A stretch of 45,653 nucleotides of DNA from the NCBI GenBank assembly GCA_949840905.1, contig CATKXW010000019.1, positions 1 through 45,653 on the forward strand, read 5' to 3'. The stretch's first letter is position 1. Each line of letters opens with the position of its first letter. Position numbers and translations under genes: made by a program. The notes beneath the pieces are model-generated. The model ran no database searches. It saw nothing but the letters and a program-made list of their open reading frames with translations, and had not been told where the DNA came from. Of this stretch, positions 18,317 to 44,083 are shown piece after piece. The DNA is from an uncultured Eggerthellaceae bacterium (GTDB lineage Bacteria; Actinomycetota; Coriobacteriia; Coriobacteriales; Eggerthellaceae).

Positions 18317-18333
18317 GATGTTCGCCCTCCGCT

Positions 18334-19190: not shown

Positions 19191-19223
19191 CTCCCCGCCG
19201 CTTATTTGCTTTATAGCGGGGAG
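19191..19223. repeat. GC-rich hairpin between AbiEii and the transfer operon
   Basis: CTCCCCGCCGCT at 19191-19202 can pair, with a bulge, with AGCGGGGAG at 19215-19223 around an AT-rich loop. On the plus strand it is followed by TTATTCTTTT. It may end transcription entering from the AbiE operon or lie in the 5' leader of the transfer operon. Confidence 0.45.
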
Positions 19224-19309
19224 GCGAGGATTATTCTTTTGGGAATGACTTGCGTGGGTTCTGCAGGGTTCTGCAAAGCTTTTGGTCAACGATTCGTTCT
19301 TGGGACTGG

Positions 19310-20757: not shown

Positions 20758-20776
20758 GCTGATATTGTAGCATGAA
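20753..20776. promoter_or_regulatory. AbiEi operator / leaderless promoter
   Basis: A perfect palindrome, TTCATGCT-N8-AGCATGAA, covers the antitoxin start codon, and its spacer contains TACAAT on the minus strand (20769-20764), a good -10 box. The start A lies 7 nt downstream. This fits direct autorepression of the promoter by AbiEi. Confidence 0.7.
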
Positions 20777-20824
20777 GTCAGCGTGATAGTACCTATTGGG
20801 ACCGCACTCGGCAAAGCGAACAGC

Positions 20825-21082
20825 TCAACCCTTTCCGTGTCTTTTGCCATCACGCGCAAATATGGTGTTTCGCTTGAACCAGGCCATGAGCTCGCCACGT
20901 TCGGCAAGAGCTCCACGAGTTGACCATCCATACACCCGCATCGGCAACGGGTCATCGTCGCGATTGATCAACTCGTAGTATTTCTGTTTGCTAATGCGCA
21001 AGAGACGCATGACCTGCCTTGAGTCGTAATAATCTTGGGGTAGGATTTGCTGCTTCTCTTGTTTGGGACTATCTTCGCTCAT
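20825..21082 (-). CDS. Helix-turn-helix protein, AlpA/excisionase-like
   Basis: 85 residues. The core YYDSRQVMRLLRISKQKYYE then LINRDDDPLPMRVYGWS is a MerR/AlpA-type winged helix with the tail LAERGELMAWFKR, as in small excisionase-like regulators. It has no membrane segment. It lies in the control region of the element between AbiE and an XRE regulator on the same strand. Function could be excision or transcription control; a second excisionase-like gene adjoins the integrase, so regulation is more likely. It does not overlap the AbiEi gene if that starts at 20757. Confidence 0.75.
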   Translation of the reverse strand: MSEDSPKQEKQQILPQDYYDSRQVMRLLRISKQKYYELINRDDDPLPMRVYGWSTRGALAERGELMAWFKRNTIFARDGKRHGKG

Positions 21083-21120
21083 GGAACCATCTCGAATAGA
21101 TTTGCATGCTGGCAGGACGA

Positions 21121-21405
21121 TCAGCTCTCGAAGCTATGTGGATTCGTGCTCAGGTCCCGAATTGCCTTCCAGCACCTGGCATCGAGGTCTTCCTGGATCT
21201 TCTCGTTGATGAAATGGTTGAAGTCGAGCTTGAGGACGTAGCAGAGGGCGACAAGCTCGTCTGCCTTCATCTCTCGGTTTCCGTGAAGGGTCTTCCAAAG
21301 GGTCTTGTTCTTGATACCAGCCCGTCTTGCCAGCTCGGTGATGTCTTGGCCATGTTGCGAGCGGACTTCGTCAATCCTTATCGATATTAGCTCGATTAGC
21401 TCCAT
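21121..21405 (-). CDS. XRE-family transcriptional regulator
   Basis: 94 residues with a Cro/C1-type helix-turn-helix: ITELARRAGIKNKTLWKTLH followed by GNREMKADELVALCYVLKLD. It is divergent from the excisionase/integrase genes with a 367-bp region rich in dyads between them, so it probably represses excision, the transfer genes or itself. No peptidase or sensor domain is fused. It is 38 bp upstream of the AlpA-like gene on the same strand. Confidence 0.88.
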   Translation of the reverse strand: MELIELISIRIDEVRSQHGQDITELARRAGIKNKTLWKTLHGNREMKADELVALCYVLKLDFNHFINEKIQEDLDARCWKAIRDLSTNPHSFES

Positions 21406-21772
21406 CCTCGTCTACCTAACGCATCCTTCTCATTAATCCAATAGGTACATTAATTAGGCTAAAGGCGATATAGACGCTCTTGCGATTGTTTCCCCTTCAG
21501 AGTGATTTATTTCACCGACATGGTGAATATTTCCAGTTCCCGGCCCTTTTCTCACTAGTGTTCGAGAGACGACACAGCGCTTCGTTTTCGCAATCTGGGA
21601 AATGTGCGCCGAGCCGCGTATTTTGACACTCGAATACGCAACCGCCTCGCAAATGCGGGGCACAACCACCCCGACACGTCAACGATGCGAACTGCGTTTT
21701 CGCATCGTTGTTCCAAGTGTCTTCAAAAGAAATGATTGTGGCAGTAAGCCACCTTCACGAGAGGAGGCTGAT
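21406..21772. promoter_or_regulatory. Dyad-rich control region between XRE and excisionase genes
   Basis: No gene is supported here. The region holds three inverted repeats: TTCACC/GGTGAA at 21511-21527, GCGTATT/AATACGC at 21616-21639 and a perfect 12-bp pair CAACGATGCGAA/TTCGCATCGTTG at 21680-21710. They are candidates for repressor or excisionase binding sites, or part of an origin of transfer. Confidence 0.55.
21680..21710. repeat. Perfect 12-bp inverted repeat
   Basis: CAACGATGCGAA and TTCGCATCGTTG flank a 7-nt spacer, 63 bp before the excisionase-like start. No T run follows, so a terminator is unlikely. A protein-binding or nicking-site role is inferred. Confidence 0.7.
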
Positions 21773-22078
21773 ATGGAACATGAGATAGAAGAAGTCCCCT
21801 ACGACGAGCAGCGCCTAAGAGATGCCGACCCCGACGGTCTCTACCTTTTCATGTTGGAGCCTTATCCGTACATGATGACCCCGGATCAGGTCGCAGACTT
21901 CACCGGTTCGACCGGACAGGAGATAAGAAAGCTCCTGAACAGGGGTGATATCCAGGGCTGCCGCATCGGCATCAAGTGGTGCATCCCGAAGCTCGGGCTT
22001 CTCAACTACCTCAACAAGAACCGAAAGGTAGGAGATGGAATTGGGGACGAAAAAGCTCAGGTGCGACAAACCGTATGA
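21773..22078 (+). CDS. Excisionase-like DNA-binding protein
   Basis: 101 residues. The central LEPYPYMMTPDQVADFTGST then GQEIRKLLNRGDIQGCRIGI is a winged-helix excisionase (HTH_17-like) core, ending KWCIPKLGLLNYLN, which resembles the binding wing. ATG at 21773 follows GAGAGGAGG. Its 3' end overlaps the integrase start by 44 bp, so the two are translated together, as usual for excisionase and integrase pairs. It probably directs the integrase toward excision. Confidence 0.8.
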   Translation: MEHEIEEVPYDEQRLRDADPDGLYLFMLEPYPYMMTPDQVADFTGSTGQEIRKLLNRGDIQGCRIGIKWCIPKLGLLNYLNKNRKVGDGIGDEKAQVRQTV

Positions 22079-23423
22079 CATCGACGAAGCACGCAAGCAG
22101 AAGGGATTGCCGCGCCGCCGCCGCAAGGATTCGCGAACGACCGCCTACGAGCTGACTATCCGTATTCCCGAGGAGTACCGTACCTACTTCGACGGAAAGA
22201 AGAAGCTCACGAAGGTCGTTTTTGCGCTCAACAAGAAAGAGGACCTCAAAGATCAGATAGACGCGTTCGAAGACGTGAAGAACGCCGAGCTCGAACGTGC
22301 GCTTGAGTTGCGCGGATGGACCCGAAGCGGCGACGGGAAGAGCAAGCCCGGCGAATGCATGACTCCTTTAGGAAGCTACATCGAGCGCTACATAGAGATC
22401 CGAAGCAACGGCTCTGTCACCGATGCCGTTATCAAGCATGAGCGCCTGTTCCTGAAATACATAGACGAGGCCATCGGCGAGATCCCGATATGCAAGGTAA
22501 CGGCGGAGGATATCGAGGGGTGCCTGCTCAAAGTTCCTGAGTTTTCCAAGAAGTGGGCGCTTGAGCGCAGGGCGCAACAGGAAGAGAACCGAAAGACGGT
22601 CAGGTGGGCGAAGAAGCACGGCACCTTGAACAAGCCCTACAAGCCCATAAAGGTCGCCGGCCCCGACATGCAGTCGAAGATACTCAAGTTCCTCCGCGAG
22701 GTTATGAACTACGCGCTTGAGAAGGATGACATCCTGAAGAACGTGGCGAAGGCGAAGTTCCTCACTCGCGTGTTCAAGAAGAGCAAGCCTTTGATCGATC
22801 CGCTCATGGCAGACGATGCCGGACGTTTCTTAGGCGAGGTCGAGAAGCTTCCCCTGGACTATTTCAAGGTGAGCCTGCTTCTGCTCTTGAACACGGGGAT
22901 GCGCCCGGAGGAGATGCTCGCCATCCATGTCGGAGACATCGCCTTCGATGGCTCTGAAGCTGCAATCAACATCGTCAGCGTTCTTGACCGTGACGGCAAG
23001 ACGATAAGGAACTATCCGAAGTCGGATGCCGGGCGCAGGTCCGTGCCGATCGATGCCTACACGGCAGGCGAGGTCAAAACATGGATCGACATCAAGTCGA
23101 GCCAGATGAAGGCAATGGGGCTCAAGCCCTCGATGTCCATGCTGGTATGCGGCCCGGATGTCATCCCCCGCACTTACCAGTCCTGGCTCAGGGACTGGAG
23201 GAGCTTCATAAGCTCGGCTGGCTTCGAAGGGACCAGGCCCTATGCGCTCCGGCATACGTTCGCTACCTTGAACCTTGCCAATGGCGAGAACATCAAGACG
23301 GTCTCTGTGCTCATGGGTCATGCGAGCTCTGCCTACACCCTCGATCTGTATGCTGGCTACGTTCCAAACACCGGCATCGGGATCGGATCGAGGTACATGA
23401 GCTTTCTGCGCTCAGCCGTTTAA
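22035..23423 (+). CDS. int: Tyrosine recombinase integrase
   Basis: 462 residues. An N-terminal arm-binding region and a core-binding SAM-like domain (about 112-245) precede the catalytic domain. Catalytic residues are visible: Arg290 in NTGMRPEE, Lys329 in NYPKSDAG, Arg406 in YALRHTFAT (the usual His of HxxR is Tyr403), His429 in LMGHAS and the nucleophile Tyr439 in TLDLYAGY. AGGAG abuts the ATG at 22035, while a TTG at 22041 is six bases away and may be the real start. It reads toward the tRNA-Gly gene 72 bp downstream, the likely attachment site. Confidence 0.95.
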   Translation: MELGTKKLRCDKPYDIDEARKQKGLPRRRRKDSRTTAYELTIRIPEEYRTYFDGKKKLTKVVFALNKKEDLKDQIDAFEDVKNAELERALELRGWTRSGDGKSKPGECMTPLGSYIERYIEIRSNGSVTDAVIKHERLFLKYIDEAIGEIPICKVTAEDIEGCLLKVPEFSKKWALERRAQQEENRKTVRWAKKHGTLNKPYKPIKVAGPDMQSKILKFLREVMNYALEKDDILKNVAKAKFLTRVFKKSKPLIDPLMADDAGRFLGEVEKLPLDYFKVSLLLLLNTGMRPEEMLAIHVGDIAFDGSEAAINIVSVLDRDGKTIRNYPKSDAGRRSVPIDAYTAGEVKTWIDIKSSQMKAMGLKPSMSMLVCGPDVIPRTYQSWLRDWRSFISSAGFEGTRPYALRHTFATLNLANGENIKTVSVLMGHASSAYTLDLYAGYVPNTGIGIGSRYMSFLRSAV

Positions 23424-23495: not shown

Positions 23496-23569
23496 GCGGG
23501 CGTGATTCAATGGTAGAATTTCAGCTTCCCAAGCTGACCACGCGGGTTCGATTCCCGTCGCCCGCTCCA
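23496..23569 (+). tRNA. tRNA-Gly (anticodon CCC)
   Basis: 74 nt including an encoded CCA. The acceptor stem GCGGGCG pairs with CGCCCGC; the anticodon stem TCAGC/GCTGA encloses the loop TTCCCAA, giving anticodon CCC for codon GGG. The T loop is TTCGATT. The 3' 47 nt are repeated at 23756-23802. The integrase lies on its 5' side. Confidence 0.95.
23523..23569 (+). repeat. att core, copy 1 (inside tRNA-Gly)
   Basis: 47 bp from the anticodon stem to the CCA, identical to 23756-23802. Tyrosine recombinases commonly use the 3' half of a tRNA gene as attB, so this is the likely crossover segment. Confidence 0.8.
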
Positions 23570-23755
23570 GAAAAAATCGTGTTGAAGGTCGCCTTTTGGC
23601 GACTTTCGTGTTTCAGAGTAGAATTGTTTGTTGGTTGGAAAACTAATCGTTTTTCCAGTATTTCGTCCAGTACGTTTGCTAGAATTATAGTGTTGGTTTT
23701 AAGAACAGCGAGGTCAGACGGTTAATTCAGGTCGCGGAAGATTGGGCAAGGAATA
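23570..23755. other. 186-bp segment between the two att copies
   Basis: AT-rich and without a gene. It begins with a hairpin, AAGGTCGCC-TTTT-GGCGACTTT at 23585-23606, that probably ends tRNA transcription. By the usual logic for tRNA 3' insertions, this is the inserted side, so it may be the remnant of a deleted element or one arm of the ICE. Confidence 0.55.
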
Positions 23756-23802
23756 AGCTTCCCAAGCTGACCACGCGGGTTCGATTCCCGTCGCCCGCTC
23801 CA
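23756..23802 (+). repeat. att core, copy 2 (tRNA-Gly 3' fragment)
   Basis: Exact copy of tRNA positions 28 to the CCA. Sequence before it does not resemble the tRNA 5' half, so it is an attachment-site remnant and not a second tRNA. It is followed directly by a strong terminator, likely the original end of the chromosomal tRNA unit. Confidence 0.85.
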
Positions 23803-26303: not shown

Positions 26304-27359
26304 TCAAGCGAGGGCCTCCAACGCTGCTTCCACGTCCGCAGAACAGGTGGCCCACCCGGTAGCGAGGCGGATGACAGCACGACCATCGCCGAGCCGCTCC
26401 CACAGGCTATAGCCGAGCCGCTCAGCCAATGGCGCGAGCTCGCTCTCGTCCGCGATAGGAAACACCTGGTTGGTGGGCGAGGGCACGTGGAGCTGCCGCC
26501 CGCGAGCCACCAGCCCCTCTCGCAGAGCGTCGGCCGCCCGCAGGGCATTCTCGCCGATGCGCCGGTAGAGCACGCCTTCGTCGCCCCCTTCGAACAGGCT
26601 CTCGAACTGCACGCCTAGCAGGCGCCCTTTGGCCAGCAGCGCACCATGCTGCTTCTTCTGCGCTACCAGATGAGGGATGGCGCCCCCTTGCGGGATGACC
26701 ACTGCCTCGCCGAACAGCGCACCACATTTGGTGCCGCCGATATAGAAGGCGTCGGTCAGCCGTGCCAGATCGGCAAGTCCCACATCGTTGGTCGAACACG
26801 CCAACCCATAAGCGAGGCGCGCGCCATCCACATAGAGCTTCAGCCCATGGGCGTCGCACGCCTTCGCGATAGCCTCCAGCTCGGCCAGCGAATACAGCGT
26901 GCCGTACTCGGTCGGCTGCGAGAGATACACCATGCCCGGCATCACCGTGTGCTCGCGCGTACCATCCTGCTCCCAACCATTAGCGCACGCCTCCACCTGC
27001 TCGGCGTTCAGCTTTCCGGCGTGGGCGGGCACGGTCAGCACCTTATGGCCGCCGAATTCGATGGCCCCCGCCTCATGAGTGGCGATATGTCCCGTATCCG
27101 CTGCGATGACCCCTTGATACGGCGCTAAGAACGCATCTATGATGAACGCGTTGGTCTGCGTACCGCCCATGAGGAACGTCACGTCGGCCTCCGGACAGTC
27201 GCACGCCCGCCGTATCAGCTCCTGTGCCCGTTCGCAATGGGCATCGGTGCCATAGCCCGACGTCTGCTCCTCATTGGTGCAAACAAGATGCTGCAATACC
27301 TCTGGATGCGCGCCCTCCAGGTAATCCGAAGATAGGTCCACGCGCGCGTTCGCTACCAC
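26304..27359 (-). CDS. Low-specificity threonine aldolase (PLP fold type I)
   Basis: 351 residues from GTG at 27359. The PLP lysine is Lys211 in YIGGTKCGALFGEA, and the cofactor aspartate is in LKLYVDGARLAYG (Asp178). FLMGGTQTNAFIIDAFL and THEAGAIEFGGHK mark the beta-eliminating lyase/threonine aldolase family, which splits L-threonine or allo-threonine to glycine and acetaldehyde. It could instead act on other beta-hydroxy amino acids. The macro-domain gene lies 26 bp upstream and is probably co-transcribed. Confidence 0.9.
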   Translation of the reverse strand: MVANARVDLSSDYLEGAHPEVLQHLVCTNEEQTSGYGTDAHCERAQELIRRACDCPEADVTFLMGGTQTNAFIIDAFLAPYQGVIAADTGHIATHEAGAIEFGGHKVLTVPAHAGKLNAEQVEACANGWEQDGTREHTVMPGMVYLSQPTEYGTLYSLAELEAIAKACDAHGLKLYVDGARLAYGLACSTNDVGLADLARLTDAFYIGGTKCGALFGEAVVIPQGGAIPHLVAQKKQHGALLAKGRLLGVQFESLFEGGDEGVLYRRIGENALRAADALREGLVARGRQLHVPSPTNQVFPIADESELAPLAERLGYSLWERLGDGRAVIRLATGWATCSADVEAALEALA

Positions 27360-27385
27360 GACTCGATACCTCTCTCTTTTCCACG

Positions 27386-28249
27386 CTAACGGAGCGTGAT
27401 GCCCTCAGGGAGGTCGATGGTGCGCCAGTCCTCCTCGTCGTCATCCTCGACAACAGGGGCCGCTACGACTTCGACCTTCTTCTCGAAGGCGGAGCGGAAC
27501 GCATCAGCATGCTGACGCGGGACCGCGAAGACGATGCGGGGGATGGCACCGGGATGCTCGGCTATCCATGCAGCGAACAGCTCGATCACCTGCTGAGGGT
27601 CATAGCCGAGGCGGCCGCACGCGAACGCGCCGCACACGAGCGTCTCGCATTCATTGGCGGCGGCGATGCGCAACAGCGTCTCTATGCGATCGCGCAGGGC
27701 ATTGTCGCACTCGCGCTCGGAGCGATGGTTCTCTAGCGCGGGTGTCCGCAAGGGCTCGGCCACCGCGATGACGTCGACCTTCTTCGGCGTCCCGCCGCGC
27801 AAGAACACCACATCGGGCAGGAAGACCGCCCTGTCGGAAAAGAGCATCCCGCGACGATAGTCGCGGTTGCGATCATGGTATCGGTCTTTGATGCCGCACA
27901 GCACCTGATATAGGTTGCTCTCTGCGCACAGGGCCTGCTCGGGCCCGAACGCGCCATCCTCGTAGGCACCGCCCGGCCGAGTGAACGCCGCCGGGTCCAC
28001 CACCGTCACGCGCCCCTTGCCCTCACGCCAAATGGCCGCCGGCACGAAGCTGGTGACCACCAAGGTCTCCGTTTCCTCGGCGGCAGTCTCGGGCAGCGGC
28101 AGCTCGCGTCCCACGCCCTCCTCGTAGATGACCGCAGCCTCTATGGTGCTGCTCGTCTCCTGCGCCAGCGTCGTCTTCATGAGGCCTTCGTGCTTCGCTG
28201 CCGCCTCGCGGCGCTCGTCTCGATCGCGTTGTCCGTCCGTCTGTGCCAT
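27386..28249 (-). CDS. TIGR02452/PARG-like macro-domain protein
   Basis: 287 residues. An N-terminal helical part (MAQTDGQRDRDERREAAAKH) is followed by a macro-like domain: VTVVDPAAFTRPGGAYEDGA, then FGPEQALCAESNLYQVLCGI and FLRGGTPKKVDVIAVAEP, ending with LVCGAFACGRLGYDPQQV. This is the microbial poly(ADP-ribose) glycohydrolase-like family. Where canonical members have a QEE catalytic pair, this one reads GPEQ, so the second Glu is Gln and activity may differ. ATG at 28249 has AAGGAA upstream. The C-terminus is acidic. Confidence 0.8.
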   Translation of the reverse strand: MAQTDGQRDRDERREAAAKHEGLMKTTLAQETSSTIEAAVIYEEGVGRELPLPETAAEETETLVVTSFVPAAIWREGKGRVTVVDPAAFTRPGGAYEDGAFGPEQALCAESNLYQVLCGIKDRYHDRNRDYRRGMLFSDRAVFLPDVVFLRGGTPKKVDVIAVAEPLRTPALENHRSERECDNALRDRIETLLRIAAANECETLVCGAFACGRLGYDPQQVIELFAAWIAEHPGAIPRIVFAVPRQHADAFRSAFEKKVEVVAAPVVEDDDEEDWRTIDLPEGITLR

Positions 28250-28420
28250 GAGCGTTTCCTTACCGTGATGAACCGATGGACCGTATCCTCTTATGATAGC
28301 CTGTTTCGCCCTGCACGCTCCCATCGAAGCCGACGGATCCTCCCTTTCCTCGTCGCTCTCTCCTCGACCCGCGACCGCCCAACACCCCTTTTCAACAGGG
28401 AAGTAACGGGAAGGTTTCTT

Positions 28421-32028: not shown

Positions 32029-33378
32029 CTAGGCGCTGAGCACCGGGTTGAAGGTGTTCCAGAACGGCCACACGATGGGCTCGGAGTCGAGGGCCTTGAG
32101 AGTTTCGGGCTTCAACAGGTCCTTGCGGATGGCCACTTCGTAGACGAAGTTGTCGAACCACTCGTCGCTGCACACGAAATAGCCGTTGTTACCGGTCTTG
32201 ATGCCATGGTTCTCGGTGCCCCACGAGTTCTCGATCTTCCACTTGTCGGGCTTGCCCTCCTTGATATCCACGCCGGCGATGGTCATAGCATGGGTGGGCA
32301 GGCTCTCATGCATGGCGAAGCGTTGGGCCTTGTCCATGTCGAACTTGATGCCGAACAGGCTCTCAAGGTCATACAGGTCAGATGCCATCACGCCCGCGTT
32401 GCGATCGCACCACTGCAAAACGTCGCTACCGAACCACACCGGCTCGCCAGCCTTCAGCGACTCGATGACATAGCCCTTGAGCTCCTCCATGGGCACGTTG
32501 ACGTAAAGGTTGCGGCGCTCAGGGATCTGATCGGAATCCTGGATGGCGTACACATGGCCATAGGGGTTGTTCTCACCGGGCACGTTGATGACGCCTACGT
32601 AGTCGTCGAGGTCGATGGGCACGTACTTCTTCAGGAACTCCAGCGGCGTGATGCCCAGGTCGGCATGGTAGTTCTTCTTGTTGTCCACATAGGTGAAGTC
32701 GAACTTCTCCGGCGGCTCACCGAAGCACACGGCCAGGATGCGGTACACGTCGTTGAGCATCTCGAGCTGGGTGGCCTCGGTATCCTTGCCAGCGTTCGCC
32801 ATGTCGCGCAGCTTGATAGCGTCTTGGCGCAGCAGGTGGGACAGCACGGTGTTCAGTTCGGCGGTGTCATTGGTGCAATGGGTCTCGGCCATGGCCTCGT
32901 GCGGCACCACGCCGTACTTCTTCACCAAGGCGCAGATCATATCCCAATCGCCACCATCGGCCATGGGCGCGCTGATCAGCCAGTCCACCTCGCGATCATC
33001 GAGGGCCTTATCAGCCGTGGCCACCACATGCTGCAAGAACCATGCGGCACGTTCTAGCTTGTTGTAGAAGGCCAGATACGACTGGGAGAGCTCGAAGGTG
33101 CCGCGCGGCAGGTCGAGCTCCTTCTCGATATGGAACCGCAGCACGTTCAAGCATGCGAACATCCAGCAGCGGCCCGACATCTTCTGGTTCGCCACCGCTT
33201 GGTCGTCCACATCGATGGAGAACGCGAAGTTCGGCGGGCTCATGCGCTTGAGCACCTCCACGCTCTCAGCCGACTGCAAGATGCCATTCTTGGTGACGGC
33301 TCGCTGGGCCACATGCTGGGTCTCGGCGTTGCGGTAAGACGCCGACATCTTGGCGATCTGTTCTTTGGAGAGTTTCAT
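32029..33378 (-). CDS. pepC: C1 family aminopeptidase (PepC / bleomycin hydrolase)
   Basis: 449 residues, the usual PepC length. The catalytic Cys71 is in NQKMSGRCWMFACLNVL; the His is in LPTHAMTIAGVDI and the Asn in WKIENSWGTENHG. It is a cytoplasmic hexameric aminopeptidase that trims peptides, and lacks a signal peptide. ATG at 33378 is chosen for AGGAAG upstream; a longer frame to 33480 has no support and would overlap the previous gene. Last gene of the permease/peptidase operon. Confidence 0.95.
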   Translation of the reverse strand: MKLSKEQIAKMSASYRNAETQHVAQRAVTKNGILQSAESVEVLKRMSPPNFAFSIDVDDQAVANQKMSGRCWMFACLNVLRFHIEKELDLPRGTFELSQSYLAFYNKLERAAWFLQHVVATADKALDDREVDWLISAPMADGGDWDMICALVKKYGVVPHEAMAETHCTNDTAELNTVLSHLLRQDAIKLRDMANAGKDTEATQLEMLNDVYRILAVCFGEPPEKFDFTYVDNKKNYHADLGITPLEFLKKYVPIDLDDYVGVINVPGENNPYGHVYAIQDSDQIPERRNLYVNVPMEELKGYVIESLKAGEPVWFGSDVLQWCDRNAGVMASDLYDLESLFGIKFDMDKAQRFAMHESLPTHAMTIAGVDIKEGKPDKWKIENSWGTENHGIKTGNNGYFVCSDEWFDNFVYEVAIRKDLLKPETLKALDSEPIVWPFWNTFNPVLSA

Positions 33379-33461
33379 TTTCTTGCTTCCTATCTCTGTC
33401 GATCCGATATGTTGCTCTATGGATACAGGGGGCGTGCGAGCCGCTCCCAGGGTCGCTTCCG

Positions 33462-34820
33462 CTAGTCGAACAGGGTCCACGGTTGGGTGGGCCTATCCTG
33501 CAGATAGCCGTCCATCCACTTCCACAGCGGGTGCTGGTCCATGAAGTCTTTAGCGTTGAACTCCACACCATCGGCCCGCCCGTACCGGCCCCACATCCGC
33601 AGGTTCTTCACGTCGTCGGGGGCCGCCGCCTTGCCATCGCAGGATCCTGCCGGATAGAACGGGATGTTCCACACCGCATCAGGATCGTCGGCATAGTATT
33701 GCGGGTCCACGTCGTAGTGGGCGCAGATGTTGCGGGAAGAGGGGTTGTCATAGCCCGTGTACACGTCGTAGGTGTCGGCGAGCATCTTCTTCACCACGTC
33801 GAGGTCGATCTTGCCGTAGTACTGGTCGATCAGCTCCATCCAACGCTGACGGCGCGCGCCGGTCTGCTGGCGCGGGTCGTTGAATCCGTTGTCCTTGCAC
33901 TCCAGATTGCGGATGCGCGGGTCGAACACCGCATTGCAGCCGAAGAAGGTACCATCGAAGGTGCGCTCCAGCGACGTGTAGGCCAAACCCTGCTCGTAGC
34001 GGGCTATCTCGCCGGTGTTATGGTCGGCTATCAGCCACGCGTTGGCGTAGCCGCCGTTGTTGCCCTTGTCCAGCCGCTCCACGAACGCATCGATGGTGCC
34101 GCCGAACTGCACGGCATCGCGGATGCGCACCCACTCGGGCATGCCCGTCTCGTCATAGCGGTCGAAACCGGCCAGGGTGGTCTCGGTGATGTTCAGCCCC
34201 GCCGAGGTCACGTAGAAGTCGGTCATGGAGGAGAGCATGCACGGTGCCGAGGCCTGCATGATGAAGCTGTAGCCCTCTTCTGGCTCCACGCGCTTGCATA
34301 CGTTGAAGTACTGGCCGCTCCAGAACTCATCGAAGCTCTCATGGCCCAGGTAGGGCTTGCCGTCCACCGTGGCAGAGCCGGTGGCCACGATGGCCGAGCA
34401 ATGCTCCTTGCGATGGGTCTTCATCAGCGGTCGGCTCATGATCTTCCCAGCGTTCTGGGGCCACCAGTAGCCGGTCACTTCCATCCAGTCGTTCCACGCG
34501 ATCAGGTCGTCGAGGGTCTGGGCGCACCCGGCAGCGGTGAGGCCATCGGCCATGCCCTGCAGCTCCTGTGCGTAGCGCTCAGGGATCATGGCCTTGTGCA
34601 TGCGAATGGACTGCTCGGCGAACCACTCGTAGGTCATGCCGAAGGTCTGCAGGGTCATGTACTTGTATACGCGCAGGCCATCTTCGTACTCGTCAGCCAG
34701 CAGATAGCCCTCTTGGAAACCGCGCTCGTAGGCGGTGCCCTTCACCTTGATGTGCTGCCAACCGTTCTTCTGTTCGCATTGCGCACCATCGACGATGCGC
34801 TGTTGTTCTTGCGTGAGCAT
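33462..34820 (-). CDS. C45/phospholipase B-like Ntn hydrolase
   Basis: 452 residues. THRKEHCSAIVATGSATVDG followed by KPYLGHESFDEFW is the pattern of Ntn hydrolases of the acyltransferase/phospholipase B group, with Cys141 as the nucleophile after internal self-cleavage. GLNITETTLAGFD and NNGGYANAWLIADHNTGEIA also match the family. No signal peptide is present, unlike many secreted relatives. The substrate is likely an amide bond in a peptide or acyl-amino acid. ATG at 34820 follows AAGGAGC. Confidence 0.83.
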   Translation of the reverse strand: MLTQEQQRIVDGAQCEQKNGWQHIKVKGTAYERGFQEGYLLADEYEDGLRVYKYMTLQTFGMTYEWFAEQSIRMHKAMIPERYAQELQGMADGLTAAGCAQTLDDLIAWNDWMEVTGYWWPQNAGKIMSRPLMKTHRKEHCSAIVATGSATVDGKPYLGHESFDEFWSGQYFNVCKRVEPEEGYSFIMQASAPCMLSSMTDFYVTSAGLNITETTLAGFDRYDETGMPEWVRIRDAVQFGGTIDAFVERLDKGNNGGYANAWLIADHNTGEIARYEQGLAYTSLERTFDGTFFGCNAVFDPRIRNLECKDNGFNDPRQQTGARRQRWMELIDQYYGKIDLDVVKKMLADTYDVYTGYDNPSSRNICAHYDVDPQYYADDPDAVWNIPFYPAGSCDGKAAAPDDVKNLRMWGRYGRADGVEFNAKDFMDQHPLWKWMDGYLQDRPTQPWTLFD

Positions 34821-34899
34821 CTCATGCTCCTTCCTGCAAGGAGAGCTGCCTCTCGGCCACCTCGGATGATCCAAGAGGCGCTCTCCCGCTCATTCGTCT

Positions 34900-34919
34900 C
34901 TCCCTTCGAGAAAAGGGAG
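34900..34919 (-). repeat. Intercistronic hairpin
   Basis: CTCCCTT and AAGGGAG form a 7-bp stem with a 6-nt loop between the S10 and C45 genes. It may be a processing or stability element of the operon mRNA. Confidence 0.5.
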
Positions 34920-34944
34920 CTGTTACGAAGCGCTCGCGAAAAGC

Positions 34945-36441
34945 CTAGGCCTCGTGACGCTTCTCGTAGAAGGCCGCCAGCTCCGGTGCCATCTTCTCCA
35001 GCGTGGGCTGGTCCTCATAGGCCATATGGCCGTTCTCGTGCACCTTGTATTCGATGCGGCTCGTGATGGACTCCGGCAGGAACATCTTGGAGATGGAGTG
35101 CTTCACGTTCCAGAACGGGGTGGCCGCATCGTGGATGCCACCGAAGAACAGCACGCGGCACTTCGGGTTGCGGCGCAAGGCCGTGCCCATGTCGTAGGCG
35201 GTGTTCGGGCACACCGGACTGCCCATGGTGCCGGGCGCCTGGTGGGTCCAGTTCCAGTCTTCGTTGACCTTGAACGACAGCAGCACGTTGTTCGGCGAGC
35301 CCTTGAAGCCCGTCTCGTGCACCAGCTTCATCCAGGCCGACTGGTCCGGGGTCATGATGGCGTCGCCGGAAGGATCCTCGCCGGCGAAGAACTCGTTGTC
35401 GCCTTGCACGTCCATGTAGGCCGGCTCGGTGAAGCGCGTATCGTAGCGACCGGTGAACAGCCCGCGATCGGCAACGATGAGCTTGCGGAAGGTATCCAGC
35501 TCGATGCGAAGGTGCTTCTTCTGGATGATGTCGGCGTCGATGCCGATGAGCTCGGCCATCTCCCCGGCTATCTTCGCCTCTTCCTCAGCGGTGATCGAAT
35601 CGCTGCGGATGAGCGCGGCAGCCAGGGTGTCATCCACGTACTTCCAGGCCTTGTCGAACCACTCGAACTGGTCCACGCCCGCACCGGCCTTGCCGAAGTA
35701 GTTGGCTGTGGCCGCATACACGGGGAACATGCCCATGTAGTACAGGTCGTTACCGGACAGGGTGGGCGCGTAGTCCAGGATGCTCGACTGCTCGATGACG
35801 CCGGTCAGCCCGATGCCGCGCTCGCCCAGCACCCGCATCAGCACCGAGTTGCGCATGGTGCCGTACGACTCTCCGTACAGGTACAGCGGGGCGTTCCAGC
35901 GATCATGCTCGGTCAGCCATGCGGCGATGCCGCGCATGAAGGCGTCCGCGTCGCCATCGACGCCCCACACCTTCTTCGGGTCGTAGCCCTCCGCCACCTT
36001 CGAGTAACCGGTGCCGAAGGCATCTAGATACACCAGGTCAGTGGTGGGAATGAGCGACCAGGGATTGTCCACGGGCTCGGTGGGGCACGGCAGCTGCTCT
36101 TGGCTGCTGATGGGCACATGACGCGGCCCCATGCCGCCGATGTTGACCATGGCGGAGGAGCCGCCAGGACCACCGTTCCAGCAGAACGTGACCGGGCGAT
36201 CGGTCTTGTCCTTCTGGTCGGTCACATAGGAGAGCGCGAACATATGGCCGATCAGCGTGCCGTCGTCCTCGCGCACCTCCAAACACTCCGCTGTGGTCTC
36301 GTACTTGATCGTCTGTTTGCCATCCGTCCAGCTCATAGCCTTGGTGGCCGGCTCCGGTACCGCAGGGGCCGGGGATGCGGCCTTCTTCTCGGGTTCCAGC
36401 TTCAGGGTGACCGTCTGCGCTGTTTGCATCGTCTCTGCCAT
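34945..36441 (-). CDS. S10 family serine carboxypeptidase, cytoplasmic type
   Basis: 498 residues. The oxyanion motif WNGGPGGSSAMVNIGGMGP at about 88-106, Ser192 in LYGESYGTMRNS, Asp438 in GGIHDAATP and His472 in ENGHMAYED form the serine carboxypeptidase triad. There is no signal peptide; a Pro/Ala-rich leader of about 40 residues precedes the fold. It removes C-terminal amino acids from peptides. ATG at 36441 is 148 bp after the permease stop. Together with PepC and C45 it suggests intracellular breakdown of imported peptides or permease substrates. Confidence 0.92.
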   Translation of the reverse strand: MAETMQTAQTVTLKLEPEKKAASPAPAVPEPATKAMSWTDGKQTIKYETTAECLEVREDDGTLIGHMFALSYVTDQKDKTDRPVTFCWNGGPGGSSAMVNIGGMGPRHVPISSQEQLPCPTEPVDNPWSLIPTTDLVYLDAFGTGYSKVAEGYDPKKVWGVDGDADAFMRGIAAWLTEHDRWNAPLYLYGESYGTMRNSVLMRVLGERGIGLTGVIEQSSILDYAPTLSGNDLYYMGMFPVYAATANYFGKAGAGVDQFEWFDKAWKYVDDTLAAALIRSDSITAEEEAKIAGEMAELIGIDADIIQKKHLRIELDTFRKLIVADRGLFTGRYDTRFTEPAYMDVQGDNEFFAGEDPSGDAIMTPDQSAWMKLVHETGFKGSPNNVLLSFKVNEDWNWTHQAPGTMGSPVCPNTAYDMGTALRRNPKCRVLFFGGIHDAATPFWNVKHSISKMFLPESITSRIEYKVHENGHMAYEDQPTLEKMAPELAAFYEKRHEA

Positions 36442-36526
36442 GATGGCTCCTTAGTCGAAATGGTTTCCGTTGCTCGTCGTTATCTCTTATATGGGCACCC
36501 CGTCTCCGAGGAAACCGCCTGATCAT

Positions 36527-36561
36527 GCCCTCGCCCTGCGCTCGCGCCCAAAGGCGAGGGC
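36527..36561 (-). repeat. Intercistronic hairpin
   Basis: GCCCTCGCC and GGCGAGGGC form a 9-bp stem with a 17-nt loop in the gap between the APC permease and S10 genes. No T run, so it is unlikely to end the operon. Confidence 0.55.
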
Positions 36562-36589
36562 CTTCCGTGCGGCCAGATCGCGGACCGAT

Positions 36590-38095
36590 CTAGCCGAGGT
36601 TTATCTGCTTCTTCAACACCTTGGTGAGCACCAGGTAGTACACGATGCCGATAGCGATGAAGACCACGCCCACGGTAAGGGCCACCTCGCCCACCGACAT
36701 CAGGATGGCGAAGCACACCAGCGCGCCCAGAGCCGGGAACACCAGGTGCATGAGCAGCGCCTGGGCTCCCGTGCGCTCTTTCAGCTGGAACCAGCAGAAC
36801 ACGATGACGGCCACGTTCAGCATGGTGTAGGTGGACAGGGCGCCGAAGTTGCTGATCTTCACCACGGTGTTCATATCGATGCCGCTGAACTGGAATATCA
36901 GCGTGAGCACGATGGACAGCCCGATGATGAACAGCACGGCGTTCAGGGGGGAGTTGGTGCGCTTGTCCATCTTGGCCATGAACTTCGGCAAACAACCGCC
37001 CTTGGCCATGGTGAACATGACGAATGCGATGGAGTTCTGCTGCGCGATGGCGGTGAACACGCCCTGGGCCAAAGCCACGCCCACGGCGCACACGATCATC
37101 AGCCACGGGCCGGCGGCCATCTTCGCTACCAGATAGAAGGCGTTGTCGGTGTCACCAGCGAACGCAGCGCCGGAGGGGTCGATGCACGTGGCGATGAAGC
37201 ACTGGGCGGCGTAGAGCACGCACAGCACGATCGCCATCACCATCATGGCTCGCGACGGACCGTGCTTGGGATCTTTAGCCTCTTGGGTCAGCGTAGCGAT
37301 GGCACCGAAGCCCACGTAGGACATGACGGCCAGCGACACGGCCGACATGGTGCCACCGAACTCGAACTTGGACGGGTCGAACAAGTTGGTGGGCGCGAAG
37401 CTGCATGTTTGCGGATGCGATACCACATAAGCGATGCCGCAACCGACGAACAACGCCAGGATGGCCAACTGCGCCACCAGGGCCACCTTGTTCACCACCA
37501 TGGCGGTCTTCATGCCGATCAGCGACACGATGGCCACTATGATGAGGAACCCGAAGCACAGGGCCAATATGGGCACATCCGGTAGCATGCTATGGATGGC
37601 TATGGCCGCGATCAGATACACCATGGCAGGACTGACCAGGTACTGCAACAGCATCAACCAACCGGCGATGAACCCGGGCAGCTTGCCGAACACGTGGCTC
37701 ACATAGGTGAAGATGGAGCCCGAGGACGGGAAATGCCGGATCATGATGCCGAAGGAGAACACCGAGAACAGCACGGCCACGAACCCGATGAGGAACGCCA
37801 GGGTGGGCATGCCGCCCGAATCGGAGAACACGCCGCCATAGACGGCCATGGGAGAGATGGGCACCATGGTGATGAGGCCCCATACCACCATATCCTTCAC
37901 CGTCAGAGTGGCCTTGAAGGTATCACCGCTCTTCTGCTTGGTGGCCACTGTCGGCTTGGTGACCGTTGTGCCGTTGTTCTCCGGCATGGACATGCGATCT
38001 TTGGCGGCCGGGTCTGCGATGGCCGTGGAGGTCGCTGCTCGCGCGGGAGCAGTGGTGCTTCCCGCGGTCAACTTCACATCGTCGTTTTTCATCAT
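36590..38095 (-). CDS. APC family amino acid permease
   Basis: 501 residues. After a hydrophilic leader of about 60 residues come 12 hydrophobic helices. LTVKDMVVWGLITMVPISPM, then AVYGGVFSDSGGMPTLAFLI and FGIMIRHFPSSGSIFTYVSH are the first three helices of APC transporters; VAVMSYVGFGAIATLTQEAK-like (SLAVMSYVGFGAIATLTQEA) is the conserved helix 6. It imports or exchanges an amino acid or amine by proton or substrate antiport; substrate unknown. ATG at 38095 is chosen for AAGGTG just upstream, not ATG at 38110. Confidence 0.9.
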   Translation of the reverse strand: MMKNDDVKLTAGSTTAPARAATSTAIADPAAKDRMSMPENNGTTVTKPTVATKQKSGDTFKATLTVKDMVVWGLITMVPISPMAVYGGVFSDSGGMPTLAFLIGFVAVLFSVFSFGIMIRHFPSSGSIFTYVSHVFGKLPGFIAGWLMLLQYLVSPAMVYLIAAIAIHSMLPDVPILALCFGFLIIVAIVSLIGMKTAMVVNKVALVAQLAILALFVGCGIAYVVSHPQTCSFAPTNLFDPSKFEFGGTMSAVSLAVMSYVGFGAIATLTQEAKDPKHGPSRAMMVMAIVLCVLYAAQCFIATCIDPSGAAFAGDTDNAFYLVAKMAAGPWLMIVCAVGVALAQGVFTAIAQQNSIAFVMFTMAKGGCLPKFMAKMDKRTNSPLNAVLFIIGLSIVLTLIFQFSGIDMNTVVKISNFGALSTYTMLNVAVIVFCWFQLKERTGAQALLMHLVFPALGALVCFAILMSVGEVALTVGVVFIAIGIVYYLVLTKVLKKQINLG

Positions 38096-38115
38096 CAACA
38101 CCTTCCACATCTTCA

Positions 38116-38154
38116 CTGGGCTGCGTCGCTCTCAACAGGACCGCCGCAGCCCAG
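38116..38154 (-). repeat. Intercistronic hairpin
   Basis: CTGGGCTGCG and CGCAGCCCAG form a 10-bp stem with a 19-nt loop between the two permease genes. It could be a differential-stability element lowering expression of the downstream genes. Confidence 0.6.
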
Positions 38155-38165
38155 CCCCTGAGAAG

Positions 38166-40358
38166 TCACTTCTTCGTCGTGGTGCCCGTCGCGGCGGATG
38201 CCGTATCGGCCCCGTCGCTCTCGGCCACCTTCCGTGCCTGTTCGGCAGCGGCCTCCGCCTCCTTCACTTCGCGTTGGGCATCAGCGAGGTCGCTATCGGC
38301 TTCCACCTGATCCTCGTAGGCTTGAGCCTCTATGGCACGATCTTTCGCCTTCTGCTTATCGGCGCGTTCTGCAGCTTCGGCCTTCTTCTCGGCCTCGGCT
38401 GCCTTGTTGGCGGCCGCCACCGCATCGCGCGGGATCGTGGCCGCTTCCACGGCTTTCGAAGAGGCCGGAGGCACTTCGTGGTCGAGCTGCACGGGCACTG
38501 CTTCCATGCGACGCTTGCCCTTCTTCAGGCCCACCGTGGCCGCTGTGCCGATGCCAGCCTTCTCGGAGATGATGGCGGGCTGGCTCATGGGCACCGACAC
38601 CGCGGTGTTCATGACGCCGTTGGTCTTCACCGGATGGTTCATGGCCGCCGGATCATCGCCCGCCTCGATGGACGGCGAGGACGGATGATGGCCGCCATGG
38701 CCGAGATACTCGGCAGAGAGCTCGATCTGCTCGTTGGGGTCCCACAGCTTCTTGATGGGCATGCCCATGGGGTTCTGGTCTTCGCTCATCATCTCGGATG
38801 GCACGTTGGACAGCACGCGCGCCGGCTTCTTCAAGCCCTCGATCTGCCAGGTGAACGGCGCGAACACGTTATTGGGATCGGCCCAATCATGCTTCTTGGA
38901 CGCCATGTACACCGTAAAGCAGATGGCGAAAGTGACCAGGATGATGGCTACGATGACCACCACGTAGGTGACCGGGCTGCCCACTTCCTCGGCCACCTGG
39001 GCCGGCGGGATGATGGCCAACACGATGCCGAAGACGCTGGCCAGCAGGCCGACGCCAGCCACCAAGTAGGCGCCCACGTTACCGCCAGGCACCTTGAACA
39101 GGCGCGGGCGGTTGGGCTGGTCGTGCCGCAGCTTCAAGAACGAGATGAACATGAGCACGTAGTACATCATGTACAGGATGGTGATGGCCTGGGTGATGAG
39201 GATGACGAAGCCTTCGATGTTCGGGATGAGGAAGCACAGGAAGGCAACGATGGTCATGAAGGCCATCTGCAGATACATCAAGCGGCTCGGCATGCCGTGA
39301 CGGTTGGTGTTCTGCATAAACTTCGGCAAGAAGCCGGAGCGGCCGGCCTGGCCCAACATGAACGACGGGCCTGCCATGTTGGTGACCAGCGATGCCATAG
39401 AAGCGCCGAGGCCGACCCACACGAACGCCACGTATATCCACGGGCAGCTGAAGCACTCGCCCAGGATCTTGTAGGTCTGGAACAGGCCATAGACCAGGTT
39501 CATCTCCGCCTTCGGCGTCACGATGGCGATGCATACCGTGCCCGCGATGAAGATGATCAGCGTCAGGATCATGGCGATGAAGATGGATAGCGGGAACTCC
39601 TTTTGCGGCTTCTTCAGCTGCTTGATGTGAGCAGCGTTCATGTCGATGCCAGCGAAGCTGAAGAACACGCCTGCGGCCAGGGCCATGGTGGTGAGGTTGA
39701 AGCCGTCAGAGAACGGATTGAACGCCTCGGGCGTGGGCGTAACATTGGATACGTTGCCCTGGGCTAGCCATACGCACGTCATGATGACGATGAAGCCCAG
39801 CGGTATGAACGTACCGATGATGACGCCATACTTGGTGAGGCCCGCGAACGCCTTGACGCCCTTGGTGGCCACGAAGGTGAGGCCCCAGTAGTAGGCCAGC
39901 CACGCCAGTATGATGAAGAACTGGTTCTGCGGGTGGTTCATGAAGTTGACGGCCCAATCCCAATCAGGTGTGTAGAACCCGATGGTGGCCGACGCGCTCG
40001 CCACGCCGGAGCCGAAGTTGATAGAAGTTTGGAACCACAGGATCAGCAAGCACGTGAATGCCAGTCCCGGCCCCAGCGCCTCGCCGACCCAGCGGAAGAT
40101 GCCACCGCGCTGTCCCCAGCCCGATGCCAGCTCCGCAGCGACCAAGCCCGTAGGCAGAAAGAAGACGATGGCGCCGATGATGAAGAGCGTAACGGAGGAC
40201 AGCCCATAATAGGCTTGCTGCACGTCATTGGCCACGCTGCCGATGATCGTCACGTTCATCATGACGAGGGCCATCAGGCTGATGTAGGTGCCGCTATTGA
40301 CCTTCGGTGCGCTCTTGCCCTGCGCTTTCGCAGGTGTTGTCGTGTTGTGAGAACTCAT
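38166..40358 (-). CDS. APC family permease (GadC-like) with long charged C-terminal tail
   Basis: 730 residues. The first 485 hold 12 hydrophobic helices; FSFAGIDMNAAHIKQLKKPQ and KEFPLSIFIAMILTLIIFIA resemble the glutamate/GABA-antiporter-type branch of APC transporters. The last 245 residues are cytoplasmic: a Pro/His linker, then a helix rich in Ala, Glu and Lys (NKAAEAEKKAEAAERADKQK, then AQREVKEAEAAAEQARKVAE), probably a coiled coil. Such a tail is not usual for the family. ATG at 40358 has AAGGGG upstream. First gene of the operon, 336 bp downstream of the TetR-type palindrome. Confidence 0.9.
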   Translation of the reverse strand: MSSHNTTTPAKAQGKSAPKVNSGTYISLMALVMMNVTIIGSVANDVQQAYYGLSSVTLFIIGAIVFFLPTGLVAAELASGWGQRGGIFRWVGEALGPGLAFTCLLILWFQTSINFGSGVASASATIGFYTPDWDWAVNFMNHPQNQFFIILAWLAYYWGLTFVATKGVKAFAGLTKYGVIIGTFIPLGFIVIMTCVWLAQGNVSNVTPTPEAFNPFSDGFNLTTMALAAGVFFSFAGIDMNAAHIKQLKKPQKEFPLSIFIAMILTLIIFIAGTVCIAIVTPKAEMNLVYGLFQTYKILGECFSCPWIYVAFVWVGLGASMASLVTNMAGPSFMLGQAGRSGFLPKFMQNTNRHGMPSRLMYLQMAFMTIVAFLCFLIPNIEGFVILITQAITILYMMYYVLMFISFLKLRHDQPNRPRLFKVPGGNVGAYLVAGVGLLASVFGIVLAIIPPAQVAEEVGSPVTYVVVIVAIILVTFAICFTVYMASKKHDWADPNNVFAPFTWQIEGLKKPARVLSNVPSEMMSEDQNPMGMPIKKLWDPNEQIELSAEYLGHGGHHPSSPSIEAGDDPAAMNHPVKTNGVMNTAVSVPMSQPAIISEKAGIGTAATVGLKKGKRRMEAVPVQLDHEVPPASSKAVEAATIPRDAVAAANKAAEAEKKAEAAERADKQKAKDRAIEAQAYEDQVEADSDLADAQREVKEAEAAAEQARKVAESDGADTASAATGTTTKK

Positions 40359-40772: not shown

Positions 40773-40821
40773 AAAAAACCACCGCTCCTCCTGCTGCTCG
40801 AACAGGAAGAACGGTGGTTCT
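40773..40821 (-). terminator. Rho-independent terminator of the rhodanese gene
   Basis: On the minus strand AACCACCG pairs with CGGTGGTT, with a further imperfect stem inside, and TTTTTT follows. It lies 64 bp after the rhodanese stop. Confidence 0.75.
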
Positions 40822-40884
40822 CATCGATCAGAACGGCCCCTCGCGCCCTCGCGATAAGAGGTCGATCGCTACGATCGAGCGCGA

Positions 40885-41235: not shown

Positions 41236-41492
41236 AAGGGCCTCCTTTTCATCAAGGGAGATGTCCTCCCGCCCATTCTGTCGTCCAGCCCATATTAGAA
41301 GGATGATCGTCCAAAAACGATGACGGGAGCGTGGCATCCTCGTTACGGTTCGGATACCGTCATTTTATGGAGACGCGCCGACGGAGCGCTCACAGCAAAG
41401 ACCGTTATGTCAGAATAGCCTGCATCGTGAATGCGGCTGCTCTCCCCCCATTGCGGGACCGAGCGCCGCGACCGACCATCAGAAAGGCGTTG

Positions 41493-42443
41493 ATGCGCGA
41501 ACTCATCAGGAAGGTGCCCATACCCACTGCTGGCGTTGCATTGGGACTGGCGGCCCTCGGTAACCTGCTCAAGCCCCTGCTCGATCCGCTCCATCATGTT
41601 TTCGGCCTGATCGCCCTGCTGCTCATAGGGCTCGTGGCGGCCAAGGCCATCCTCTTTCCCTCGCTCATCCGTGAAGACCTGCGCAACTCGGTGCTCGCCA
41701 GCGTGTCGGCCACGTTCTTCATGACGCTCATGCAGATAGCTACCTACCTGGCCTCCTTCGCCCTGGGCGCGGCGTTCGCGCTGTGGGTAGCAGCGGTGAT
41801 CGGGCATCTCGTGCTCATGACATGGTTCACGTTCACCTTCATCAGGCGGTTCAAGCTTTCTGAGGTGTTCCCTACCTATTTCATCTGCTACGTGGGAATC
41901 ATCGTCGCCTCGGCCACGGCCCCGGCATTCGGAGCCCAGCAGATCGGCTATGGGCTGTTCTGGCTGGGATTCGCCTGCTACCTCGTACTGTTGGTAGTGG
42001 TCACGTACCGCTACGCTAAGCATGAGGTGCCCGAAGGCGCACGGCCTTTGTTCTGCATCTACACGGCGCCCATGAGCCTGTCGTTGGTGGGATATCTCGC
42101 CTGCGCACCGGCACCGAACATGCTGTTCGTCGGCATCCTGTTCGTAGCGGCCCAGCTGCTCTACGTGATAGTGCTCACACGACTGCCGAAGTTCTTGGCC
42201 CTTGATTTCTACCCGAGCTTCGCCGCCATGACGTTTCCGTTCGTCATCACGGCAACGGCGCTCGGGCAGGTGACCGAGCTCTTCCGCGCGGCGGCCGTGC
42301 CCTTCGTCACCGCCCTTGAATGGCTCGCCCTGGGCGAGACGATGGTGGCATGCCTCATGGTCGCCTTCGTGCTGGGCCACTACGTTCGCTTCCTGTTCGC
42401 ACGGCCCCGTGCCGTGGAGGTCGAGGCGGAAGCAGAAGCCTAA
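41493..42443 (+). CDS. TDT family transporter (tellurite-resistance/dicarboxylate type)
   Basis: 316 residues with about ten hydrophobic helices. KVPIPTAGVALGLAALGNLL is the conserved first helix of TDT proteins such as TehA and malic acid permeases. TYFICYVGIIVASATAPAFG, GLFWLGFACYLVLLVVVTYR and PMSLSLVGYLACA follow the family pattern. It may export or import a small organic or inorganic anion such as a dicarboxylate, sulfite or chloride. ATG at 41493 is chosen for AAAGGCG. The C-terminus is a short acidic Glu/Ala repeat. Confidence 0.88.
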   Translation: MRELIRKVPIPTAGVALGLAALGNLLKPLLDPLHHVFGLIALLLIGLVAAKAILFPSLIREDLRNSVLASVSATFFMTLMQIATYLASFALGAAFALWVAAVIGHLVLMTWFTFTFIRRFKLSEVFPTYFICYVGIIVASATAPAFGAQQIGYGLFWLGFACYLVLLVVVTYRYAKHEVPEGARPLFCIYTAPMSLSLVGYLACAPAPNMLFVGILFVAAQLLYVIVLTRLPKFLALDFYPSFAAMTFPFVITATALGQVTELFRAAAVPFVTALEWLALGETMVACLMVAFVLGHYVRFLFARPRAVEVEAEAEA

Positions 42444-42511: not shown

Positions 42512-44083
42512 TCAGTGATCGGATGCGCCGAAGGCGTTCTTCATCTTCAAGCTGCGGTTGAACAGCACCGTGCCCAGCAGGTCGTCGTTACCCTGCTTCA
42601 CCTTGTCGGTCAGCTTCTGATTAGCCTCTTCCAACAAAGCGAACAGCGCTTCATCGTCCATCTCGCCTTCAGCGATGCCCTTGTCGGCCATCAGCTTCGC
42701 TGCCTGGCCGTCGGTCTCGCGCAGCGAAACGTAACCGGCAGCCAGTGTCTCCTGCTGATACGCCGCGATGGGCTCGCGATTCTCGAAGTACTCCGGATCG
42801 GCCAGGGCCGCCACCAACCGATCGGTCCAGTAGAAGCTCTCGGTGCTCACGCGCAGCGGCGTGTCGAAGTATGCGGGCAGCTTCGTGACGTTGGCGTACA
42901 GCGCCACTGCCGTGTTGAACGGCCCGCTGCCGAAGGCGACCCACTGCACGCCGCGCAGCACGGCCGGTACGTAGGGGCGCACTTGCAGGATGGAGCATTC
43001 GCAGGTGCGGTTGATGCCGATGTCGCGGAAGCTGCGATGATCCTCGGTGGTGCCGCGCAGACCGTAGGGGTCGTACACGGTGCCATCATAGGTGGACGAC
43101 AGCATGTTCTTCACGTCCATGACAGATATCTTCGCCTCGGGCACCATCGCCCATGGCATATCGAACGACTCCGGCCCGTAGAGGGCGTTCGGTCCGTGGA
43201 AATCCGCTGATGTGCGGTTGAGCATCGAGCACATGTACCATTTGCGCGGGCAATTGTAGACCATATCGAGCCAGGTGAAGCTGCTGAACGCCTCACGAGG
43301 GTCGAACACCCGCGGAATGCCGCAGAACCGAGGGTCGCTCGAAGGTTCGGCGCTTCCCATGGTGACATCGAGGTGGTTCTCGGCCATCCACTGGGGCAGA
43401 TCGGCGCTGCACATGTTGTCCTTCTGGGCACCCAGGGCATCATCGAGGTCGAGCCGATCGATGCCCTGACGGTTGGGCTGGGCCACATAGGAGTCATCGG
43501 GAACGCGACGGGCGATCCAATGATGGCCGCCGATGGTCTCGATATACCAGATGTCCTTCTCGTCGCCGAAAGCCACGCCGTTCATCTCGTAGGTGCCGTA
43601 ACGCTCCAGCAGCTCGCCCATGCGCTGCACGCCTTCCTTAGCACTATGGATGTACGGCAGCACGATGGTGACCAGGTCCTCTTCCCCGATGCCGCCGGGC
43701 TGCTCGGCCACATGATCGGCATCGCCCGGCTTGCCCACGGCAGGCCGGTAGACAACCAGCGGATCAGCGCCCAGCACGCGCGCATTGGACGAGATGGTCT
43801 CGGTAGCGGTCATGGAAACGTTGGCCGCGTTGATGCCCGCTTCTCCCCACACGCCACCGCTGCGATCGGTGTTCGGCGTGCAGACGTAGCGCAGCGGGTC
43901 GTCCGGCAGTTCGATGGTGGGATGACTGTTCACCCCGGTATAGATGCGAGGTTGATCCGCCGGCTTCACCACTACCATGCTCTTCGCGTTGAACGCCCCA
44001 TCTTCGCAATCCTCGTTGCGCGCTATGATGGTGGAGCCGTCATTGGTGGCCCCTCGGCCAACCAGCAAGGTCGTGCATGCCAT
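42512..44083 (-). CDS. C69 family dipeptidase
   Basis: 523 residues. MACTTLLVGRGATNDGSTII then ARNEDCEDG is the C69 start, with Cys3 as the Ntn nucleophile after removal of the leader. Further matches are RYVCTPNTDRSGGVWGEAGI, NAANVSMTATETISSNARVL and DIWYIETIGGHHWIARRVPD. It cleaves dipeptides with broad specificity in the cytoplasm. ATG at 44083 has GAGGGA upstream. It converges with the TDT gene. It adds to the three peptide hydrolases of the nearby operon. Confidence 0.93.
   Translation of the reverse strand: MACTTLLVGRGATNDGSTIIARNEDCEDGAFNAKSMVVVKPADQPRIYTGVNSHPTIELPDDPLRYVCTPNTDRSGGVWGEAGINAANVSMTATETISSNARVLGADPLVVYRPAVGKPGDADHVAEQPGGIGEEDLVTIVLPYIHSAKEGVQRMGELLERYGTYEMNGVAFGDEKDIWYIETIGGHHWIARRVPDDSYVAQPNRQGIDRLDLDDALGAQKDNMCSADLPQWMAENHLDVTMGSAEPSSDPRFCGIPRVFDPREAFSSFTWLDMVYNCPRKWYMCSMLNRTSADFHGPNALYGPESFDMPWAMVPEAKISVMDVKNMLSSTYDGTVYDPYGLRGTTEDHRSFRDIGINRTCECSILQVRPYVPAVLRGVQWVAFGSGPFNTAVALYANVTKLPAYFDTPLRVSTESFYWTDRLVAALADPEYFENREPIAAYQQETLAAGYVSLRETDGQAAKLMADKGIAEGEMDDEALFALLEEANQKLTDKVKQGNDDLLGTVLFNRSLKMKNAFGASDH

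Follow-up and report, generated by a model that had tools for sequence, protein, structure and literature searches.

In an uncultured bacterium of the family Eggerthellaceae (host genome assembly of 1.98 Mb), the genes for a C45 Ntn-hydrolase, the aminopeptidase PepC and a GadC-like APC antiporter (APC1) are present in, and absent from, the same members of a set of 297 genomes of the order, and their adjacency is conserved in two families. We propose, with a probability of roughly 0.55, that the three proteins form a module for the dedicated uptake and cytosolic cleavage of a small amino-acid-like amide or short peptide. In the window, i.e., the whole stretch of 45,653 nucleotides that was analysed, the corresponding genes belong to a row of five, which is listed here together with the features upstream of it:

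38166..40358, minus strand: APC1, GadC-like APC antiporter of 730 aa, putative core of the module
36590..38116, minus strand: APC2, second APC permease, 2A0306/BcaP-like type
34945..36441, minus strand: S10 serine carboxypeptidase-like hydrolase, probable accessory
33462..34820, minus strand: C45 Ntn-hydrolase proenzyme, putative core of the module
32029..33378, minus strand: PepC, C1B aminopeptidase / bleomycin hydrolase family, putative core of the module
about 40780..40825, minus strand: intrinsic-terminator-like hairpin and T6 ahead of APC1, parting it from a rhodanese gene
41331-42443, plus strand: SLAC1-type gene, between C69 and APC1
42512..44083, minus strand: C69 dipeptidase (565 bits), a recurrent neighbour outside the transcription unit

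The preliminary description of this DNA had already noted that the five genes between 32029 and 40358 run in the same direction, and profile searches back the families that it assigned to them. The intergenic gaps, in the order APC1, APC2, S10, C45 and PepC, measure 49, 148, 124 and 83 bp. Strong hairpins are present in the APC2/S10 and S10/C45 gaps, where it had been suggested that transcription units might end, and none of them carries a T run, which led us to reject them as canonical terminators. Because the gap hairpins lack T runs and the S10-C45 gap is only 24-36 bp long in two relatives, the five genes probably constitute a single operon. A pattern scan for terminators returned 11 candidates for 9.4 expected, i.e., no excess, and missed the T6 hairpin before APC1, the stem of which has interior loops. 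The C69 dipeptidase had been described as lying nearby; it is close and in the same direction, but does not belong to the operon, being separated from it by the plus-strand SLAC1-type gene, the rhodanese gene and the T6 hairpin. Its position and orientation vary across the loci of relatives (L026-L030). A tRNA-Met called by ARAGORN at 38573-38671, on the opposite strand and inside the conserved APC1 gene, was taken as spurious.

Other parts of the window contain mobile DNA. An integrative conjugative element (4008-23423) encodes an integrase, a coupling protein (T4SS-DNA_transf), a TraE/VirB4-like ATPase, an NlpC/P60-glucosaminidase, a sortase and a surface protein with SpaA, T-Q ester bond and thioester domains, and harbours an AbiEi/AbiEii type IV toxin-antitoxin pair (19310-20955). 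Within 23496-23802, by the integrase gene, the 3′ 47 bp of a tRNA-Gly(ccc) gene (23523-23569) are repeated exactly at 23756-23802. This repeat is likely an attachment site; it lies beyond the tRNA gene, however, and perhaps marks a second element or a remnant. A microbial-type PARG gene adjoins a threonine-aldolase-like gene, the latter named from sequence reading only (26304-28324). A plasmid search with the PepC gene as query gave no match.

The main evidence for the module is the joint inheritance of its three genes. Each of the three has orthologs in exactly the same 18 of the 297 genomes, which belong to nine of the 108 genera and to two families. Orthologs were defined by at least 55% identity for C45, at least 50% identity for PepC and an E-value of at most 1e-150 for APC1; the APC1 limit was fixed before the result and the two identity limits after the scores had been seen, though in wide gaps, the next-best C45 being at 40% and the next PepC outside the module genomes at about 44-45%. 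Co-occurrence of the three genes has a Fisher p of 3e-29 over the 297 genomes and a probability of 1/C(108,9) = 2.6e-13 when counted by genus, relatedness being ignored in both figures. Two genera (g6 and g48) include both members with all three genes and members with none, so that joint gain or loss must have occurred more than once.

The main rival of the module reading is a general salvage of peptides and amino acids, in which peptides imported by ABC transporters would be degraded by unspecific peptidases and the two APC proteins would balance amino-acid pools. It is an unlikely explanation, though one to be taken seriously, since the genome encodes an importer of the SBP_5 type. Salvage sits poorly with a three-gene set that is rare (18/297) and all-or-none while PepC is common: some PepC gene is present in 126 of the 297 genomes, and the match therefore concerns specific orthologs.

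Gene neighbourhoods point in the same direction as the presence pattern. C45, PepC and APC1 form one cluster in 15 of the 18 genomes, in both families and with permuted gene order. The order APC1-APC2-S10-C45-PepC is found, complete or up to the contig end, in G034, G069, G030, G067, A. agrestimuris, D16-34 and L029, a list in which some entries are one genome under two labels and L029 is a metagenome assembly. Five Adlercreutzia-like genomes (G081, G233, G238, G269 and G321) display C45-PepC-APC1-APC2 with S10 elsewhere. The latter four-gene order recurs in the second family (f4) in G101, G131 and G225, where the cluster is flanked by permeases of the basic amino acid/polyamine antiporter type. 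Also in f4, C45-PepC-APC1 is present in G160 and, with one intervening gene, in G300, and the three genes lie side by side in G283. In G163, C45-APC1-APC2 remain together and PepC lies away from them, as three tandem genes with 49-55% identity to the module PepC (L087, 9305-13762). In G154 and G223 the module genes are separated or on different contigs, APC1 of G223 not being on the contig of C45.

Among these relatives the blocks APC1-APC2 and C45-PepC move as pairs. Such behaviour would be expected if two functions simply lay side by side, APC1 and APC2 being unrelated housekeeping permeases carried along with the hydrolases, a reading that we consider highly improbable given that APC1 and C45/PepC occupy the identical 18 genomes and cluster in 15 of them despite the permuted order. 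Taken together, the genomic data indicate that C45, PepC and APC1 are the core of the module and that S10 and C69 are accessories, as APC2 possibly is too. The dedicated pathway proposed in the preliminary description is thus supported for these three genes and not for all five plus C69 as a single pathway, given that neither Adlercreutzia nor the second family has S10 linked to the others. The synteny search in Coriobacteriia suggested there, with scattering in relatives as counter-evidence, likewise gave a divided answer: the three genes are mostly clustered and S10 is often unlinked.

The C45 protein matches the C45_proenzyme profile NF040521 (140.5 bits for a cut-off of 85) and Pfam Phospholip_B, and its Cys141 and His160 are invariant in 18 sequences. 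In an AlphaFold2 model (mean pLDDT of 79, with residues 353-393 unreliable), it resembles the precursor of isopenicillin N acyltransferase (IAT; Z of 32.5, rmsd of 3.0 and 337 aligned residues) and PLBD2 (Z of 29.6). Residue 141 aligns to the mature N-termini of Ntn enzymes (PLBD2 249, NAAA 126 and penicillin acylase 1). The invariance of Cys141 and the model alignment both agree with an Ntn fold with a Cys nucleophile behind a prosegment, and the protein is best described as a predicted Ntn amidase of the IAT/PLBD2 type with Cys141 as its predicted nucleophile. The likeness to IAT (2x1c/2x1d, C45) extends over nearly the whole length of the predicted fold and includes the Cys nucleophile after a prosegment; however, the identity is only 13%, beta-lactam genes are missing and the context is that of peptidases and transporters. 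PLBD1/PLBD2 (C95) share the Phospholip_B match, the fold and the nucleophile position, but are lysosomal and larger, whereas the module C45 is predicted to be cytosolic. A C45/IAT-type amidase is not a standard enzyme of peptide salvage, which again weighs against that rival. Insect Tan is an N-beta-alanyl-amine hydrolase and thus acts on amino-acyl amides. Likened to C45 by description only, this eukaryotic enzyme is related to IAT (PMC10194958). The nucleophile of PLBD2 is Cys249, and the substrates of PLBD1/2 are unknown (PMC9140057).

Outside the module, other families of the phylum have C45 relatives (40-46% identity) with an N-terminal lipobox and unrelated neighbour genes; predicted lipoproteins of this kind are encoded at L094 (9386-10843), L095 (9362-10780) and L096 (7866-9269). 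The family has therefore switched between extracellular and cytosolic forms, and the cytosolic form goes with the transporter. No hydrophobic N-terminus, hence no signal peptide, was found in the S10, C45 or PepC proteins, as had been claimed for S10. A cytosolic module C45 is what one would expect if the substrate were brought inside.

PepC is matched over its full length by its profiles (Pfam, 520 bits; C1B PepC, 8e-156) and by aminopeptidase C of known structure (4k7c, 3.6e-115). The catalytic Cys/His/Asn motifs are present (SGRCWMFA at 68, THAM at 362 and ENSWG at 383), in agreement with membership of the C1B aminopeptidase C / bleomycin hydrolase family. Within that family, the module PepC orthologs stand apart: they share 50% identity or more with the PepC of the window, and no PepC from a genome lacking the module exceeds about 45%.

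The S10 protein has a profile match (Pfam S10, 49 bits), with a triad Ser192/Asp438/His472 that is invariant in 18 sequences and a predicted fold (model pLDDT of 74) whose best matches are cathepsin A and carboxypeptidase Y. Triad and fold are those of a serine carboxypeptidase; the lack of the signal peptide typical of secreted or lysosomal eukaryotic members lowers its likeness to the latter only. The nearest hits to this protein are in Adlercreutzia/Enterorhabdus and in further Eggerthellaceae, many of which are represented by metagenome assemblies. S10 proteins with at least 52% identity occur in 17 of the 18 module genomes and in one other (G051, A. muris), and any S10 in 97 of the 297 genomes, i.e., the family is widespread. 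Besides being unlinked in the groups mentioned above, S10 is present in G051/A. muris without the other three genes, and it was thus discarded as a core member. It lies beside a divergent APC permease at L012 (A. muris) and L013, and beside an aspartate 4-decarboxylase-like gene at L017. One genus of the second family, g80, has S10 clustered with genes for an MFS transporter, a type I asparaginase, an aspartate 4-decarboxylase and C69 (L082, 4920-16871); look-alikes of these genes at L083 were identified by reading alone. This cluster suggests a locus for the catabolism of Asp/Asn peptides, and S10 tends to occur near genes of amino-acid catabolism and not just with the module. PepC and S10 belong to broad-specificity families, which, like the company of asparaginase and aspartate decarboxylase that S10 and C69 keep in other species, speaks for general salvage.

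APC1 belongs to Pfam AA_permease_2, and its residues 26-494 match GadC of known structure (PDB 4dji, E-value of 4.8e-41). The GadC-like character assigned to it earlier is correct as regards homology to the GadC core, but APC1 is no equivalog: the NCBIfam Gln_GABA_anti score of 400 bits is below the cut-off of 650, which excludes APC1 as a Gln/GABA antiporter equivalog, and the scores against the GadC Glu/GABA or Gln/GABA equivalogs (400 vs 650 and 321 vs 640 bits) all fall short. Behind the GadC-like stretch of about 470 residues, the C-terminus extends into a hydrophilic tail of some 230 aa, whose length and short motifs are conserved (33-66% identity in orthologs vs 60-93% for the core). 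This tail, encoded in 38166-38870, is rich in Ala, Lys and Glu and, past the last transmembrane segment, contains a well conserved block, SNVPS...NPMGMPIK. APC2, an amino acid transporter of the 2A0306/BcaP-like type that scores above no equivalog cut-off, adjoins APC1 at most loci; in the second family it is just 43% identical, and at some loci none was seen.

The pairing of a glutaminase with GadC provides a precedent for an amide hydrolase coupled to such an antiporter (PMC6250119). The module might accordingly be imagined as an acid or redox stress system of this kind, in which an imported amide is hydrolysed, ammonia or an amine is freed and the product is exported, chiefly to raise the pH. 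Gln/GABA antiporters are indeed the nearest kin of APC1, but PepC would have no role in such a system and APC1 scores below the equivalog cut-off. Profile searches found neither a glutaminase nor a glutamate decarboxylase among the cluster genes of the window, the flanks in relatives having been read and partly searched. Altogether this explanation seems improbable. Glutaminase-GadC (AR2_Q) acid resistance is the nearest working analogue rather than a family containing the module: in both, a cytosolic amide hydrolase is encoded with a GadC-type antiporter, but here the hydrolase is of the C45 Ntn type and not a glutaminase, there is always an aminopeptidase, a decarboxylase is absent and the antiporter carries a long tail.

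For the module reading, we infer a common substrate, exchange transport, an order of steps and a benefit in energy or pH. APC1, perhaps with APC2, would bring in a small amino-acid-like amide or short peptide and carry a product out. C45 would become active by cleaving itself before Cys141 and hydrolyse an amide bond in the cytosol, PepC would trim residues from the N-terminus and S10, if there is one, from the C-terminus. The amino acid or amine set free in this way would enter catabolism or leave via the antiporter. APC transporters typically carry single amino acids and amines rather than peptides, which counts against this scheme, as do the separation of PepC in G163 and of APC1 in G223 from C45. 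Furthermore, the SBP_5-type ABC importer, encoded elsewhere in the host genome, could admit peptides, with the APC proteins handling only released amino acids; no POT-type peptide importer was found in that genome.

A more specific and rather doubtful version of the proposed module would be a catabolic or energy-yielding exchange route in gut Coriobacteriia, dedicated to one specific conjugate, its antiport being driven by hydrolysis rather than by decarboxylation. A GadC-like antiporter with its conserved tail in the cytosol would import, for example, an amino-acyl amine or a gamma/beta-linked amide that stems from the host or the diet, C45 and PepC would liberate the parts of the conjugate in the cytosol, and a product would be exported in exchange. 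As the preliminary description had stated, no described pathway with this set came to light: we found no paper on C45-PepC-APC1(-APC2-S10) in a literature search that left subscription papers mostly outside. The module would give a common role to peptidases and permeases that are annotated as unrelated to one another in gut bacteria, Adlercreutzia among them, and would open the question of the substrates of cytosolic C45/PLBD-type amidases to testing, the gene set being defined and strains that carry or lack it existing in nature.
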